Of a stretch of DNA of 64,000 nt, positions 26,617-32,909 are shown in pieces (the stretch's first letter is position 1; each line of letters begins with the position of its first letter). A program made the position numbers and the translations under genes. The notes beneath the pieces were generated by a model. That model saw only the letters and a program-made list of their open reading frames with translations. It had not been told where the DNA came from and searched no databases. The stretch is taken from positions 169,261-233,260 of the forward strand of contig DYMB01000001.1 in NCBI GenBank assembly GCA_020721805.1, in the 5' to 3' direction. This stretch comes from Acetofilamentum sp. Lineage in GTDB: Bacteria; Hydrothermota; 32-111.

Positions 26617-26680
26617 TGTTTTCAATTACCGGCTAATTTTTTTAATTGATTTTTCTTTTTTTTAGTTTACAATAAAACCA

Positions 26681-26753
26681 GATCTGAGGTTGATGTTTTT
26701 CATAAACCGAGGATCCAAAAAAACTGAGGACAAGATATTTTAAGTCCGAGGAG
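26681..26753 (+). promoter_or_regulatory. Candidate structured 5' leader: two tandem hairpins with CTGAGG-stem-CCGAGGA cores; the second includes the Shine-Dalgarno
   Basis: CTGAGG at 26684 and 26724; CCGAGGA at 26707 and 26746; GGTT/AACC and GGAC/GTCC stems; GAGGAG SD 5 nt before ATG 26759. Confidence 0.55.
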
Positions 26754-26758
26754 AAACA

Positions 26759-27034
26759 ATGGAACAAAAAAATGAAAAAAGATTAAGGATTGGGATAGTA
26801 GGTATTATTGTTGAAAATAGAAATGAAGTATCCCGTGTAGTTAACCAGATTTTAACAGATTATGGATATATAATAAAGGGAAGGATGGGCCTACCAAATT
26901 TAACTGAAAATTTCTGTGCCATATCTTTGATTGTTGAAGGAACAAATGAAGATGTTGGTGCGATGACAGGAAAACTTGGAAGAATAAAGGGAGTTAAAGT
27001 TTCATCCACTTTTATAAAAAAGGAGAAATTATGA
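26759..27034 (+). CDS. TM1266-family putative iron-only hydrogenase system regulator
   Basis: 91-aa ACT-like protein (RIGIVGIIVENRNEVSRVVNQILTDYGYIIKGRMGLP) directly before hydG. Confidence 0.88.
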   Translation: MEQKNEKRLRIGIVGIIVENRNEVSRVVNQILTDYGYIIKGRMGLPNLTENFCAISLIVEGTNEDVGAMTGKLGRIKGVKVSSTFIKKEKL

Positions 27035-28428
27035 ACCAAACTAACGATTTTATTGACCAGGAATATCTTGATGATCTCATAAAATCAAATAAAAAACCTT
27101 CAAAAAACGAAGTGATTGAAGTTTTAAAGAAGGGAGAAGAGAAGAAGGGTCTTTCTGTTGAGGATGTTTTTGTCCTTTTACAGAATGATGATCCGGAACT
27201 GACAGAAGAGATGTTTTCTCTTGCATTGAAGATAAAAAAGGAAATCTATGGAAACAGGCTTGTAATATTTGCTCCACTTTATGTTACAAATGTTTGTGCA
27301 AATGTTTGTGACTATTGTGGGTTTCGTGCAGACAATAAAGAGTTGAACAGACGAACTCTTAGTATCGATGAATTGAAAGAGGAAGTTAAAATTCTTGAAG
27401 AAGAAGGACATAAAAGAATCTTAATGGTTTACGGTGAACACCCTAAATTTAAAGTTGACTGGATAAAAGAGACCATACTTACAGCATATTCGGTAAAATC
27501 TGGTAATGGAGAGATAAGAAGGATAAATGTTAACAGTGCTCCAATGGATACGGAAGATTTTAAAATATTGAAAAGTTCAGGTATAGGTACCTATCAATGT
27601 TTTCAGGAAACATACCATAGAAAGACTTACGAAAAGGTTCATCTTAAGGGTAAAAAAAGGGATTATATTTACAGACTCTATGCTCTCCATAGAGCACAGG
27701 AAGCGGGAATAGATGATGTAGCGATGGGTGTTTTATTTGGACTTTATGATTACAGGTTTGAAGTTATGGCTTTAATACAACATGCTATGCAACTTGAAAA
27801 AGTTTTTGGAGTTGGCCCACATACGATATCTTTTCCAAGAATCGAACCTGCTCTTGGTGCACCTCTTTCAAAACATCCACCGTTTCAGGTAAAGGATAAG
27901 GATTTTAAAAAGATTGTATCAATATTAAGGATAGCGGTTCCATATACCGGACTCATTCTTACAACAAGGGAAAAAGCAGATTTTAGAAGAGAACTTTTTC
28001 AACTGGGGGTATCACAGATAAGCGCAGGTTCAAGAACATACCCGGGTGCATACCATGATGCTAAAACTAATAAACCTGATATGCAACAGTTTACTATAGG
28101 TGATACAAGATCTCTTGATGAGGTAATATTTGATATAGCATCACACGGTTATATTCCCTCTTTTTGTACTTCATGTTATAGAAGTGGAAGAACAGGATCA
28201 CATTTTATGAGTGAAGCCAAGGGAGGTCATATACATACATTCTGTCAGCCAAATGCTATTTTAACCTTTATAGAATATTTACAGGATTATGCATCACTTC
28301 AAACCAGAGAAGTAGGATTCAAATTTGTTGAAAAAGAGATAGAGAAGATGGAGGAAACGATTTTAAAGAAAAATTTTATTCAAAAAGTGAATGAGACTAA
28401 AGAGGGGAAGAGGGATCTGTATTTTTGA
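27031..28428 (+). CDS. hydG: [FeFe] hydrogenase maturase HydG (radical SAM)
   Basis: CANVCDYCGF radical SAM motif, QCFQETYHRKTYEKVH, C-terminal CTSCYRSGRTG. Confidence 0.95.
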   Translation: MNQTNDFIDQEYLDDLIKSNKKPSKNEVIEVLKKGEEKKGLSVEDVFVLLQNDDPELTEEMFSLALKIKKEIYGNRLVIFAPLYVTNVCANVCDYCGFRADNKELNRRTLSIDELKEEVKILEEEGHKRILMVYGEHPKFKVDWIKETILTAYSVKSGNGEIRRINVNSAPMDTEDFKILKSSGIGTYQCFQETYHRKTYEKVHLKGKKRDYIYRLYALHRAQEAGIDDVAMGVLFGLYDYRFEVMALIQHAMQLEKVFGVGPHTISFPRIEPALGAPLSKHPPFQVKDKDFKKIVSILRIAVPYTGLILTTREKADFRRELFQLGVSQISAGSRTYPGAYHDAKTNKPDMQQFTIGDTRSLDEVIFDIASHGYIPSFCTSCYRSGRTGSHFMSEAKGGHIHTFCQPNAILTFIEYLQDYASLQTREVGFKFVEKEIEKMEETILKKNFIQKVNETKEGKRDLYF

Positions 28429-28437
28429 GGAGTTTTT

Positions 28438-29676
28438 ATGAAAAAAGAACTCATATCGATGGCTCCACATATAGGAATTTTTGGGAAAAGAAATGTTGGC
28501 AAATCATCACTTATAAACAGTATTACAGGTCAAAATATAGCAATAGTATCAGATATCCCCGGCACAACAACGGATCCTGTTGGTAAAAGGATGGAAATAT
28601 TGCCACTTGGTCCTGTTTATATTGTTGACACTGCTGGAATAGATGATGAAGGTGAACTGGGAAAAGAGAGGGTAAAAAAATCTCTTGAGGTTTTGGGGAA
28701 AACTGATCTGGTAATCCTTGTTTCAACATACTCAACTTTCAACGATTTTGATAAAAAATTCATTGGGAGTATGAAAAAGAGAAATGAAAAGATACTTGTC
28801 GTTTTTTCAAAAATGGACATTGAAAAAAACGATTCAAAGGTTATGGAATGGTTAAAAGAGAATAAAGTTAAATATATTGAGGTTTCATCAAAAACTGGTG
28901 AAAACATATCAAAACTTAGAGAAAAAATAGCTTCATTGTTGGAAGAAGTTATAACATCCGATGTTATAATAAGAGATCTGGTAGGAAAGAATGATATCGT
29001 TGTTCATGTTATTCCAATAGATTCAGCCGCTCCAAAGGGAAGAGTGATATTGCCACAGGAGCAGGTATTGAGGGATGCGCTTGATGCAAACTCTATTTCC
29101 ATAGTTGTTCAGGATACTCAACTTGAAGAAAGTTTAAAAGTTTTGCATAGGAAACCAAAACTGGTTATCACAGATTCACAGGTGGTTGATCTTGTCTCAA
29201 AAGTAGTACCTAAAGATATTGATATAACTACATACTCTATACTTTTTTCAAGACTCAAAGGTGATCTTGTTGAGTATGTAAGGGGATTGCAGGTTTTGAA
29301 AAAATTAAAGGATGGTGACAAAATTTTTCTCGCTGAAGCGTGTACACACCATACACAATATGATGATATAGGAAGGGTTAAATTACCAGCCTGGATAGAA
29401 AAATATACGGGCAAAAAGTTAAATTTTATTATGAATCCTGGTGTAATGATACATAAGGATATTTCAGATTCAAAACTGATTATACTTTGTGGGAATTGTA
29501 TGATTAACAGAAAGGAGGTTCTATCAAGAATTTTAAAAGCAAAAGAAGAGAATATCCCCGTTACAAACTATGGTGTTATAATATCACATATACACAACGC
29601 GTTAAATAGAACCATAAAAGTTTTTAAAGATGCTTACGATGAGTATATAAAAAGTTTTCCGGAGTCTGGATGCTAA
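28438..29676 (+). CDS. hydF: [FeFe] hydrogenase H-cluster maturation GTPase HydF
   Basis: GKRNVGKSSLINSITGQ, DTAGIDDEGELG, cluster ligands EACTHH...CGNC. Confidence 0.95.
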   Translation: MKKELISMAPHIGIFGKRNVGKSSLINSITGQNIAIVSDIPGTTTDPVGKRMEILPLGPVYIVDTAGIDDEGELGKERVKKSLEVLGKTDLVILVSTYSTFNDFDKKFIGSMKKRNEKILVVFSKMDIEKNDSKVMEWLKENKVKYIEVSSKTGENISKLREKIASLLEEVITSDVIIRDLVGKNDIVVHVIPIDSAAPKGRVILPQEQVLRDALDANSISIVVQDTQLEESLKVLHRKPKLVITDSQVVDLVSKVVPKDIDITTYSILFSRLKGDLVEYVRGLQVLKKLKDGDKIFLAEACTHHTQYDDIGRVKLPAWIEKYTGKKLNFIMNPGVMIHKDISDSKLIILCGNCMINRKEVLSRILKAKEENIPVTNYGVIISHIHNALNRTIKVFKDAYDEYIKSFPESGC

Positions 29677-30668
29677 ATTATAGTTTTAAAAACCTTGTTC
29701 ATCTTTTGGAGTCTAAAAATGAAGAACATTTGAATTTAAGAAAAAAAGCCAACCAACTAACAGAAAAAATTTTTGGAAAAAAGGTTTTTTTAAGAGGTAT
29801 TATAGAATTTTCAAACATATGTAGAAAAGATTGTCTATATTGTGGTATAAGAAAAAGCAACAAAAATCTTGTCAGGTATTTTATTAAAAAAGAGGATATA
29901 AAAGAGATAATAAAGAATAGTTATCAGGATGGTTTCAGAACTATAGTTTTACAGAGCGGGGAAGTCGAGATCTTTGATAGAGATATAACAGAAATTATCG
30001 AATTTACCAGGAAAAATTTTGATATGGCGATAACCCTATCTCTTGGGGAAAGAAAGAGAAAAGTTTACGAAGAGTGGAAAAAAGCAGGTGCGGATAGATA
30101 TCTTTTAAGGATAGAAACCACAAACAGGGAACTCTTTAAAAGACTTCATCCAGATGATGATTTTGATAACAGGTTAAGATCTCTGCTTTACCTAAAAGAA
30201 CTCGGTTATGAAACTGGAACAGGTGTTATGATAGGTTTACCAGGACAAACATATGAGGATCTTGCAAAGGATATTCTCTTTTTTAAAATTTATGATTTCG
30301 ATATGCTTGGAGTTGGTCCATTTTTACCTTCTTTTGAAACACCTTTAAAAAATGAAAAAAAACCAGATTTTGAACTCGTATTAAATTTCCTTGCACTTTT
30401 AAGACTCATTACGGGAAATACTAATATTCCAGCAACAACATCCATGGCAACACTTGATAAGAAAGGCAGAGAAAAGGCTTTAAATAGTGGGGCGAATGTT
30501 ATAATGCTAAATTATACCCCTGCACAATATAGACATATGTATCAACTTTATGATGAAAAGATCTGTTTGAGGGAAGATGAAAAAAATACCTTTAAGTTAA
30601 CTGAAAATGTTGTAAGAAGAGCAGGAAAAATACTTGTTGACGAGAAAGGGGATAGGGTGAAGTTATAA
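29670..30668 (+). CDS. hydE: [FeFe] hydrogenase maturase HydE (radical SAM)
   Basis: NICRKDCLYCGIRKSN, VLQSGE, GVGPFLPS, NLTPxxYR-like MLNYTPAQYRHMYQLYD. Confidence 0.93.
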   Translation: MLNYSFKNLVHLLESKNEEHLNLRKKANQLTEKIFGKKVFLRGIIEFSNICRKDCLYCGIRKSNKNLVRYFIKKEDIKEIIKNSYQDGFRTIVLQSGEVEIFDRDITEIIEFTRKNFDMAITLSLGERKRKVYEEWKKAGADRYLLRIETTNRELFKRLHPDDDFDNRLRSLLYLKELGYETGTGVMIGLPGQTYEDLAKDILFFKIYDFDMLGVGPFLPSFETPLKNEKKPDFELVLNFLALLRLITGNTNIPATTSMATLDKKGREKALNSGANVIMLNYTPAQYRHMYQLYDEKICLREDEKNTFKLTENVVRRAGKILVDEKGDRVKL

Positions 30669-30711: not shown

Positions 30712-32031
30712 ATGTATGAAATTATAATAATAGGTTCAGGACCATCTGGACTTTTTGCCGCTTTAAATCTTGTAAATAATGGTAAGGATTCAATATGTAT
30801 AATCGATAAGAATCCCTTTCCATCCGGAGGGATGTTAAACGATTGCAAGTTGAATCTTTCGACCGAGATCGGTATGGATCTTGGAGAATTAAGGATTACA
30901 AAGGAAAAAGCAAAAGAATATATAGATTTTATAGATAAAACTTTTCTTTTTTTTGGTGCACCGGATGAAGTTTATGGCTCTGATGAAAAGTTGTATAAAG
31001 AATGGGCTGAAAGGGCGAAAAGAAACGATGTTGAGTTTATCCCATCATTGCAAAGGCACATAGGAACAGATCTTTCAAAAAAGATAATAAAAAATTTTAG
31101 AAACTATCTTGAAGAAAAGAATGTTAAAATAAGACTTTCAACTGAAATCGTTCATATAGAGAAAAAAGATTCACAATTTTTCTTAAAATCTTCCACAGGT
31201 GAGGAATTTTTTTCAAAATATCTTTTGCTCGCTCCTGGAAGATCCGGTTCAAGTTGGCTTAGAGAAATTTCAAAAAAACTCAAAATATCCTATTCCAATG
31301 GGAAAAAGATAGATGTCGGCATAAGGCTCGAGATGAACAAAGAATCCTATCCTATAACCGATGTTATATATGATCCCAAATTTAAAATGTTTTCAAAATA
31401 TAAAAATGTTTTAAGAACCTTCTGCACGAATCCAAAAGGAAGAGTAACACTTGAAAGGTATGATGATTTTACTCTTATTAACGGCGATGCTTTGAAAATG
31501 AAAAAGACTGAAAATACTAATTTTGCATTGCTCGATACGATAATTTTAACCGAGCCTTTAACCGATCCCTTTGTATATGGAAAGTTGATCTCAATAGCAA
31601 CGAATCTTCTTGGTAACGGTAAACCGATAATACAGAGAATAGGTGATTTTCTTGATGAAAAAAGAAGTAAATTTGAAACATTTTTTGATAAAACAAGATG
31701 GTTTGACAGGGTGAAACCAACATTACAGATTGGAGAACTCGTAACACCCGGTGATATAAGGATGGCTTATCCTTATAAGATAGTTAAAGAGTTGAAAGAG
31801 GGTCTTATCAGGTTGAACAAGATTTTTGGTAATACAATATTAAAAGAAGAGAATATAATATACGCTCCAGAGGTAAAATTTTATTCCATCTCTTACCAGA
31901 CAACCGATGAACTTGAAACAAATGTGAAAAACATTTTTGTAGCAGGTGATGGTGCAGGTAAATCCAGGGGAATAGTTGGAGCGGCAATATCAGGACTTAT
32001 AGCCTCAAATGGGATTTTAAAAAAAGGATGA
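30712..32031 (+). CDS. FAD-dependent oxidoreductase
   Basis: IIIIGSGPSGLFAALNL; C-terminal NIFVAGDGAGKSRGIVGAAISGLIA. Confidence 0.85.
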   Translation: MYEIIIIGSGPSGLFAALNLVNNGKDSICIIDKNPFPSGGMLNDCKLNLSTEIGMDLGELRITKEKAKEYIDFIDKTFLFFGAPDEVYGSDEKLYKEWAERAKRNDVEFIPSLQRHIGTDLSKKIIKNFRNYLEEKNVKIRLSTEIVHIEKKDSQFFLKSSTGEEFFSKYLLLAPGRSGSSWLREISKKLKISYSNGKKIDVGIRLEMNKESYPITDVIYDPKFKMFSKYKNVLRTFCTNPKGRVTLERYDDFTLINGDALKMKKTENTNFALLDTIILTEPLTDPFVYGKLISIATNLLGNGKPIIQRIGDFLDEKRSKFETFFDKTRWFDRVKPTLQIGELVTPGDIRMAYPYKIVKELKEGLIRLNKIFGNTILKEENIIYAPEVKFYSISYQTTDELETNVKNIFVAGDGAGKSRGIVGAAISGLIASNGILKKG

Positions 32032-32909
32032 ACCAGTTTAAAAGAAAGATTTCAGCATTTTTTTTTGCGATAAGACCCTATGAAAATCTTCAACATTTTT
32101 TGTTTACAGTTGCAGGATTTATCTATGCAACATATAAACTCGCCTTTTTTGAAATAAGTTTGAAATCTTTTATAGGGAGTATAACTGTTCTATCATTTCT
32201 TTCACAGGTTCTCTCATACAACAATTATGCAACTTTTGAACTGGATCTTGTAGATGAAAGTAAAAAATTTCAAAATAAATTTGAAGGTATAAACAAAACT
32301 TTTCTTCTTAAAATATCAATATTCTTTTTTGTTTTAACGATTCTTTCATCTCTCTTTATAAACATTATTTCCACACTTTATTTTATTCTTCTTATGTTTG
32401 GATGGATTTTGTATACACATCCGAAGTTAATGATGAAAAGAAATATTATCTTTCCGTTTATTCTTGATATTTTGACTATGCCATATTTAACTATTTTTGG
32501 TTCATATGTTTCAGGTTATTTTGGTTTTGACCTTTTAATCTTTTCCATATTTTTTGGACTTATTGAAATAGCAGGTCATCTTAACCATTATAACCTTGAT
32601 TATGAGGTTGATAAAAAAACAAAAATATTCACTATAGCCCACAGTGTTGGTAGAAAAAATCTTTTTTTGCTTACAGTTTTCTTTTTTGGAATCTCATCCT
32701 TCTATTTTTTGATAATCTCTATTTTTAAAATAATTCCTTTGTATACTGGATTCTCCTATATCCCCGGTTTTATATTTCAGCTTATTTTTACTTTTAAAAT
32801 TTTAAAAAAGAATATGGATTATAATTTTCCTTTAAAGTTTAGAACATTTTACAGAATCCTATTTTTTCTGGAATCCCTTTTTGTCGTCTTAACTCTACTT
32901 TTATTATGA
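32028..32909 (+). CDS. UbiA-family prenyltransferase-like membrane protein
   Basis: Multi-TM; NNYATFELDLVDESKK and NHYNLDYEVDKKT Asp-rich loops. Confidence 0.7.
   Translation: MNQFKRKISAFFFAIRPYENLQHFLFTVAGFIYATYKLAFFEISLKSFIGSITVLSFLSQVLSYNNYATFELDLVDESKKFQNKFEGINKTFLLKISIFFFVLTILSSLFINIISTLYFILLMFGWILYTHPKLMMKRNIIFPFILDILTMPYLTIFGSYVSGYFGFDLLIFSIFFGLIEIAGHLNHYNLDYEVDKKTKIFTIAHSVGRKNLFLLTVFFFGISSFYFLIISIFKIIPLYTGFSYIPGFIFQLIFTFKILKKNMDYNFPLKFRTFYRILFFLESLFVVLTLLLL

Follow-up and report, generated by a model that had tools for sequence, protein, structure and literature searches.

A leader RNA element of [FeFe]-hydrogenase maturation genes that co-occurs with the putative regulator TM1266

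Introduction

The [FeFe]-hydrogenase active site is put together by three enzymes, and how bacteria tune this assembly line is an open question. TM1266 has been described as a putative regulator, and its structure has been solved since 2006 (PDB 2nzc). We found no target of TM1266 in the literature. In the 64-kb stretch of DNA analyzed here as a whole (the window), a TM1266-family gene opens the maturation operon TM1266-hydG-hydF-hydE, and two similar hairpins precede it. A reading of the sequence alone had taken them for a tandem ligand- or protein-responsive switch, possibly for the co-encoded regulator. What are these hairpins, and what may bind them? In this work, we show that they are two copies of a real, widespread cis-regulatory RNA element.

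Results

All four genes of the operon lie on the forward strand and match NCBIfam equivalogs above the cut-off. The first (26759-27034) encodes a protein of 91 aa that belongs to the TM1266 family by the curated cut-offs of both TIGR03959 (96 bits, cut-off 60.8) and PF21699 (92.4 bits, cut-off 27). It is followed by hydG (27031-28428; H-cluster radical SAM maturase, TIGR03955, 514.6 bits), hydF (28438-29676; H-cluster maturation GTPase, TIGR03918, 505.2 bits) and hydE (29670-30668; H-cluster radical SAM maturase, TIGR03956, 362.5 bits). The operon is extended by genes at 30712-32031 and 32028-32909. According to weak family matches, they encode an FAD-dependent oxidoreductase-like and a prenyltransferase-like protein, which are unusual partners of hyd genes. 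Using a consensus scan, we found a candidate promoter on the forward strand (TTGATT-16-TACAAT, 26646-26673, 9 of 12 positions matched). It was graded as weak, because the chance mean is 0.7 per region. A transcript from this promoter would begin roughly at the first hairpin.

The pattern CTGAGG-N(8-20)-CCGAGGA matches the window twice, with 0 matches expected from 100 shuffles, and there is no third match across the whole 1.7-Mb genome (99.8% complete). Both matches lie where the sequence-only reading had placed them, at 26684-26713 and 26724-26752, with starts 40 nt apart. The stems that it had paired, GGTT/AACC (26688-26691 with 26705-26708) and GGAC/GTCC (26728-26731 with 26744-26747), are correct by sequence, and the GATC/GATC helix closing the first copy is present. 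Hairpin copy 1 (26681-26715, forward strand) was delimited by sequence, fold and covariance model (CM) matches. It consists of the outer helix GATC(U)/(G)GATC, a GA/GA loop, the helix P2 (GGUU/AACC), a GA/UA loop, the helix P3 (UG/CA) and a U5 loop, and it scores 33.8 bits with CM R1 and 31.1 bits with R2. Copy 2 (26724-26751, forward strand), delimited in the same way, is built of P1 CU/GG, a GA/GA loop, P2 GGAC/GUCC, an AA/AA loop, P3 GA/UU and a UAUU loop; its scores are 37.1 bits (R1) and 34.5 bits (R2). The MFE fold reproduces both copy 1 (-12.9 kcal/mol, z -2.7) and copy 2 (-6.7 kcal/mol, z -1.9). The Shine-Dalgarno GAGGAG (26748-26753, forward strand) had also been located correctly. 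It is in the 3' strand of copy 2, 5 nt before the ATG at 26759, and this position predicts that the Shine-Dalgarno of the operon is sequestered when copy 2 is folded. The hairpins had previously been described as one GA platform on a stem. The outer GA loop is indeed there, and a second GA/RA loop with an inner helix had been missed. Since each hairpin has this second loop and helix, the unit is a pseudo-dyad and not a single GA platform.

The element is about 30 nt long and has the consensus CUGA-N(3-4)-RAGG-loop-CUGA-N(3-4)-RAGG. Three short helices are separated by two tandem-GA (GA/RA) internal loops. Base pairs form between the outer CU and the last GG, and between the inner GG and the second CU. 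The central helix P2 of 3-4 bp, flanked by both GA loops, is free in sequence, with 34 distinct sequences among 56 copies. The two strands are near-identical, as expected of a pseudo-dyad: identity is 81% at the conserved columns versus 22% in P2. In the alignment of 56 copies, which were partly hand-picked to fit the consensus, 97.3% of cells are standard pairs, and 116 cells are changed on both sides. Covariation in this alignment is 0.654 versus 0.155 in shuffles (0/500), and it is at most 0.18 in all controls with a slid structure. A subset of 32 copies, picked in part by hand in the same manner, is 99.6% paired with a covariation of 0.694. The terminal loop of 4-8 nt is not conserved in sequence among the 56 copies. 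In some clostridial leaders (L034, L042, L052; e.g., L034 4856-4888), the first tandem copy is a degenerate half-element that keeps the outer GA loop, with the inner part replaced by a longer helix CUGAUG/CAUCAG.

These data bear on two simple explanations. The first is that the hairpins are chance structures or local repeats without function. Only their short length fits it, and it is refuted by the conservation across phyla, covariation, orientation and gene context, so that its probability is negligible. The second is a DNA operator for a transcription factor, a direct repeat CTGAnnnnRAGG in which the hairpin is incidental. Read as DNA, the element does repeat directly with a period of about 20 bp, and Rex-like operators are located near these promoters in some relatives (L005, L009, L010). 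However, the two repeats are reverse-complementary at their four free positions, which covary, and for this reason the operator was rejected. The orientation of the element (sense strand relative to the hyd genes), its place within the leader and the bases that it shares with the alternative pairing of a terminator or Shine-Dalgarno also speak against an operator. We regard it as very improbable.

Covarying homologs upstream of hyd operons were found in at least five phyla. The element occurs in WOR-3, Bacillota, Thermotogota, Omnitrophota and others, before TM1266-hydG, stand-alone hydG, hydF and aspA-hydF. The window is grouped with the WOR-3 phylum. Among its relatives of the same family, TM1266 is preceded by tandem copies in L005, L008 and L009, and one clear copy is present in L010; a single copy is found in the sister family (L003, L004, L006) and in the family f7 (L011-L014). 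We examined 80 named TM1266 loci from GTDB genomes and found the element in Bacillota, Omnitrophota, Atribacteria, Synergistaceae, contigs labelled Deltaproteobacteria and others. In Bacillota, tandem copies are 41-50 nt apart (L034, L035, L042, L050, L052, L061, L067, L069, L072, L078, L101). The tandem arrangement noticed in the window is common elsewhere but not universal.

When 25 named genomes were searched with the model, all strong matches outside TM1266 were at maturation genes. The element was found at the stand-alone hydG of Thermoanaerobacterium butyriciformans, and at hydF and at hydA-hydG of Athalassotoga saccharophila; in Syntrophomonas zehnderi, a second copy separates TM1266 from hydG. 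Of 249 Bacillota-type genomes sampled, 51 gave a match at E ≤0.02. Leaving out false positives in coding sequences, one repeat and one unassigned site, the sites in this sample precede TM1266, hydG, hydF (L167), aspA-hydF (L179) and transporters (L183, L184, L186, L166). Among 81 Thermotogota genomes, 55 had a match. In all 19 Thermotogota loci first examined, the element precedes TM1266-hydG or hydG; about 12 of 18 further sites could be assigned, and these precede hydF, hydG, TM1266-hydG or hydA. The following were discarded as false positives: matches inside gyrA, rpoB and other coding sequences (L152, L174, L177, L180, L189, L190), the repeat L192, and Thermotogota matches in G405 and G436. 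Extra WOR-3 matches of the narrow model R1 (L279-L283) were also discarded, since they fall in coding or unrelated sequence away from any hyd gene. L168/L289 (G339), L300, L303 and L305-L307 were left unassigned.

Several sites deserve a separate description. In three related genomes, an ECF transporter S component (PF12822) begins about 10 nt downstream of the element (L183 1450-1481, minus strand of the locus; L184 1563-1594; L186 1508-1539). It is possible that this component imports an H-cluster precursor or cofactor. In L166 (genome G221), tandem copies (1450-1482 and 1500-1532) precede an operon of an SsuABC-type ABC transporter, and the same genome has tandem copies before TM1266. In L179 (minus strand), the element is followed by a terminator, aspA and hydF. 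Aspartate ammonia-lyase, encoded by aspA, is a source of ammonia, and its location with hydF perhaps points to a link with the bridge amine of the H-cluster. In the WOR-3 family f7 (L015-L018 with L011-L014), there are two consecutive TM1266-like genes, and the element lies between them, only before the second. L019, L020 and L021 contain a second TM1266-like paralog, which is divergent, scores below the TIGR03959 cut-off and has no element upstream. A similar weak second match was found in most Thermotogota genomes.

In most phyla, an intrinsic terminator is located downstream of the element. A permissive scan showed a terminator-like hairpin between the element and the start codon in 44 of 53 other TM1266 leaders, and a stricter scan in 24 of 53 versus 7 of 265 shuffles. 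Complementarity of the element 3' strand to the 5' arm of the terminator is above that of shuffled sequences (mean z -1.0, n=44; t-test p 2e-5). This antiterminator complementarity is strong in L057, L064, L071, L076 and L004 and absent in others; roughly one in two Bacillota leaders pairs no better than shuffled sequence. The picture is clearest in Thermotogota. Here, the segment A, that is the element 3' strand with its flank (e.g., CACCAAGGGAGGGGAA), pairs with the segment B (TTCCCCTCCTTGGTG), and B alternatively pairs with the segment C (CAAGGAGGGG, then TTTTT) just before the gene. In 16 of 19 leaders, A:B pairs better than shuffled sequences, at -19 to -34 kcal/mol (z -2.7 to -7). Thus, the A:B antiterminator and the B:C terminator are mutually exclusive, as in an attenuator. 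Since the element 3' strand is the antiterminator strand, folding of the element would free B, and the terminator would form. Overlap of the 3' strand with the Shine-Dalgarno, as in the window, was also found in f7 leaders and before Thermoanaerobacterium hydG and Athalassotoga hydF. A translational switch, as first suggested, is in keeping with the location of the Shine-Dalgarno in the window; elsewhere, transcription attenuation is the commonest output. Judging by these pairings, the folded element is predicted to be the OFF state in every architecture.

To find a candidate partner, we compared the occurrence of the element with that of TM1266 and hydG, counting genomes without phylogenetic correction. 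The 249 Bacillota-type genomes include 140 with TM1266 and 149 with hydG above the cut-off. TM1266 is encoded in 48 of the 51 motif-bearing genomes. The three others have marginal matches (E 0.011-0.016) and no hydG, and their number is within chance expectation. In 20 genomes that have hydG and lack TM1266 (including G162 and G249, which are only weakly TM1266-like), a local search around hydG with filters off revealed the element in 0/20; the best score was 11.8 bits on the wrong strand. Local search of 40 genomes with TM1266 in which the coarse genome scan had detected no element recovered it in 24 (E <0.1). All 24 are on the sense strand; 20 are located 75-319 nt upstream of TM1266, and four elsewhere in hyd operons. 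In total, the element is present in 72 of 88 Bacillota loci with TM1266, with none detected in the other 16, versus 0/20 with hydG and without TM1266 (Fisher p ~2e-12, kinship ignored). In Thermotogota, it was found in 53 of 60 genomes with TM1266 (7 had no detectable element) and at hydG in 0/5 genomes that have hydG without TM1266 (p ~1e-4, kinship ignored). TM1266 is often unlinked to the element, as in Thermoanaerobacterium and Athalassotoga. The element thus tracks the TM1266 gene and not hydG alone. A general hydG-linked element independent of TM1266 is unsupported by the 0/20 result. Autoregulation of TM1266 in cis as its sole role was also rejected, because the element is often before hydG or hydF with TM1266 elsewhere.

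The main rival is a small-molecule or metal-ion riboswitch. In this case, the GA loops would bind a ligand linked to the H-cluster (iron, SAM, a tyrosine product or an H-cluster precursor), and TM1266 would be merely a member of the regulon. Several features resemble a riboswitch: the conserved loops are compact and flank a helix that covaries freely, many genomes have tandem copies with a spacing of about 40-50 nt, like guanidine-II or glycine riboswitches, and the expression platforms are of the terminator and Shine-Dalgarno types. The occasional control of transporters (the ECF S component and the SsuABC type) is another such feature. However, a riboswitch predicts neither the absence of the element from genomes with hydG and without TM1266 (0/20 and 0/5) nor that almost every motif-bearing genome encodes TM1266, whether linked to the element or not. 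In addition, a dimeric protein would be expected to have a pseudo-dyad as its site more than a riboswitch would. We therefore consider a riboswitch unlikely, while still the strongest competitor. It could also be supposed that the leader is bound by another protein of the regulon (e.g., HydF, HydG, HydA or a general RNA chaperone) or by a complex containing TM1266, as the element precedes hydF and hydG as well as TM1266. But genomes with hydG and without TM1266 are also without the element, and hence HydG alone is not the partner. Such a binder seems to us distinctly less probable than a riboswitch. TM1266 is the favored binder because the element co-occurs with it even when the two are unlinked, in line with the early suggestion that the co-encoded regulator may be the partner.

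The AlphaFold model of the window TM1266 (pLDDT 88.6) is a beta-alpha-beta-beta-alpha-beta domain. Using Foldseek, we found that it is closest to PDB 2nzc, then to NikR C-domains (E ~1e-5 to 1e-4) and ACT domains. The Pfam NikR_C model gives 21.6 bits (E 2.6e-4), just below the cut-off of 22. Thus, TM1266 has the fold of ligand-sensing ACT/NikR-C domains. No DNA-binding domain and no recognized RNA-binding domain were found in its 91 aa. Conserved residues include R10, N29, G41-R42-M43-G44-x-P46, T70-G71-K72-L73-G74 and V81 (window numbering), several of them basic. A scan of viral contigs for TM1266 found nothing.

Discussion

The reading of the leader as ligand- or protein-responsive is supported by homologs before hyd operons, by co-occurrence with TM1266 and by the absence of a match in Rfam. 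The best explanation is TM1266-dependent repression by attenuation or Shine-Dalgarno masking, with a probability of about 0.6. The element probably shuts off the maturation genes when TM1266 grips the RNA. A dimer of TM1266, an ACT-like protein with the NikR-C fold and no DNA-binding domain, may read the pseudo-dyad, binding the hairpin directly and stabilizing it. With TM1266 bound to the folded element, the genes would be OFF. For the TM1266-hydG-hydF-hydE operon of the window, the Shine-Dalgarno would then be hidden by the 3' strand of copy 2. The 3' strand of the bound element would instead be kept from its antiterminator role in Bacillota, Omnitrophota and Thermotogota, and the downstream terminator would form. 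TM1266 may sense the state of H-cluster assembly or its substrates, which would provide feedback control. In a broader form, TM1266 proteins would be a new family of RNA-binding regulators based on a stand-alone ACT/NikR-C domain. They would read the state of H-cluster assembly (iron, tyrosine or a CO/CN synthon), and the entire maturation regulon would be repressed by them, both in cis and in trans, via a dedicated pseudo-dyad RNA box in many anaerobic phyla. We consider the chances of this broader proposal about even.

If so, several deep phyla would share a new class of leader RNA, and RNA-binding regulators might gain a new fold class. A portable element of 30 nt with a candidate partner makes regulation by TM1266 directly testable, and it offers a handle for engineering hydrogen production in Thermotoga and clostridia. 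TM1266, hydG and hydE of T. neapolitana are co-induced under CO2 (PMC7039931). Rex regulates transcription of hydG/TM1266 in Clostridium thermocellum (PMC8457756). Since Rex acts on transcription, the RNA element would be a second, post-initiation layer. Rex-like operators (TTGTGAAATAAGTCACAA, TTGTGAAATAAATAACAA and TTGTGAAAAATTTAACAA) are located just upstream of the element in L005, L009 and L010, overlapping the promoter region. The window leader has no match to Rex boxes at ≤3 mismatches.

The leader RNAs of the H-cluster maturation regulon form a real class that is, as far as tested, unreported. In the literature searched, no RNA leader of hyd genes is described, and the lists of new bacterial structured RNAs that were examined do not mention hydrogenase. 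At the gathering thresholds of Rfam 15, only tRNAs were found in the window, and the leader gave only chance-level matches at E ≤10. No family fell on the element in 15 loci of Bacillota, Omnitrophota and others or in 20 of Thermotogota and others. The element therefore remains without a named class, as the sequence-only reading had supposed.

TM1266 shares the C-terminal/ACT-like fold with NikR. The NikR repressor combines an N-terminal ribbon-helix-helix with NikR_C, whereas TM1266 has only 91 aa without the ribbon-helix-helix DNA-binding domain and is proposed to have RNA as its target. Two small tandem hairpins controlling a terminator or Shine-Dalgarno are also known from guanidine-II (mini-ykkC) and other tandem riboswitches. 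Unlike guanidine-II, the element has no matching loop consensus or Rfam match, and it is tracked by the protein TM1266. The RAT of LicT/SacY is a short hairpin with two internal loops bound by a symmetric dimer of CAT domains. The element is likewise a short hairpin with two internal loops, and it is conceivable that a symmetric dimer straddles it. In contrast to the RAT, the folded element is predicted to be OFF and not ON, the consensus is unrelated, and the co-occurring regulator (PF21699/TIGR03959) has no CAT domain. Hairpins responsive to ANTAR proteins (EutV, NasR; PMC3369931, PMC7496416) are similarly tandem and lie in leaders of metabolic operons before a terminator. Their conserved residues are in hexanucleotide terminal loops, whereas those of the element are in internal loops, its terminal loops vary from 4 to 8 nt without conservation (56 copies), and no ANTAR protein is involved. 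The best match to the PyrR binding site RF00515 was 30.5 bits (L041 4875-4974), below the gathering threshold of 54, and there was none in the window. The sequence and fold differ from those of PyrR leader attenuators, the regulator is not PyrR, and the site is a two-loop pseudo-dyad. In pyr attenuation, the protein-bound hairpin is an anti-antiterminator: upon binding, the terminator forms and the operon is off, and one regulon has several such leaders. The proposed action of the element would be of the same kind, with a protein-bound hairpin leading to a terminator and the OFF state.
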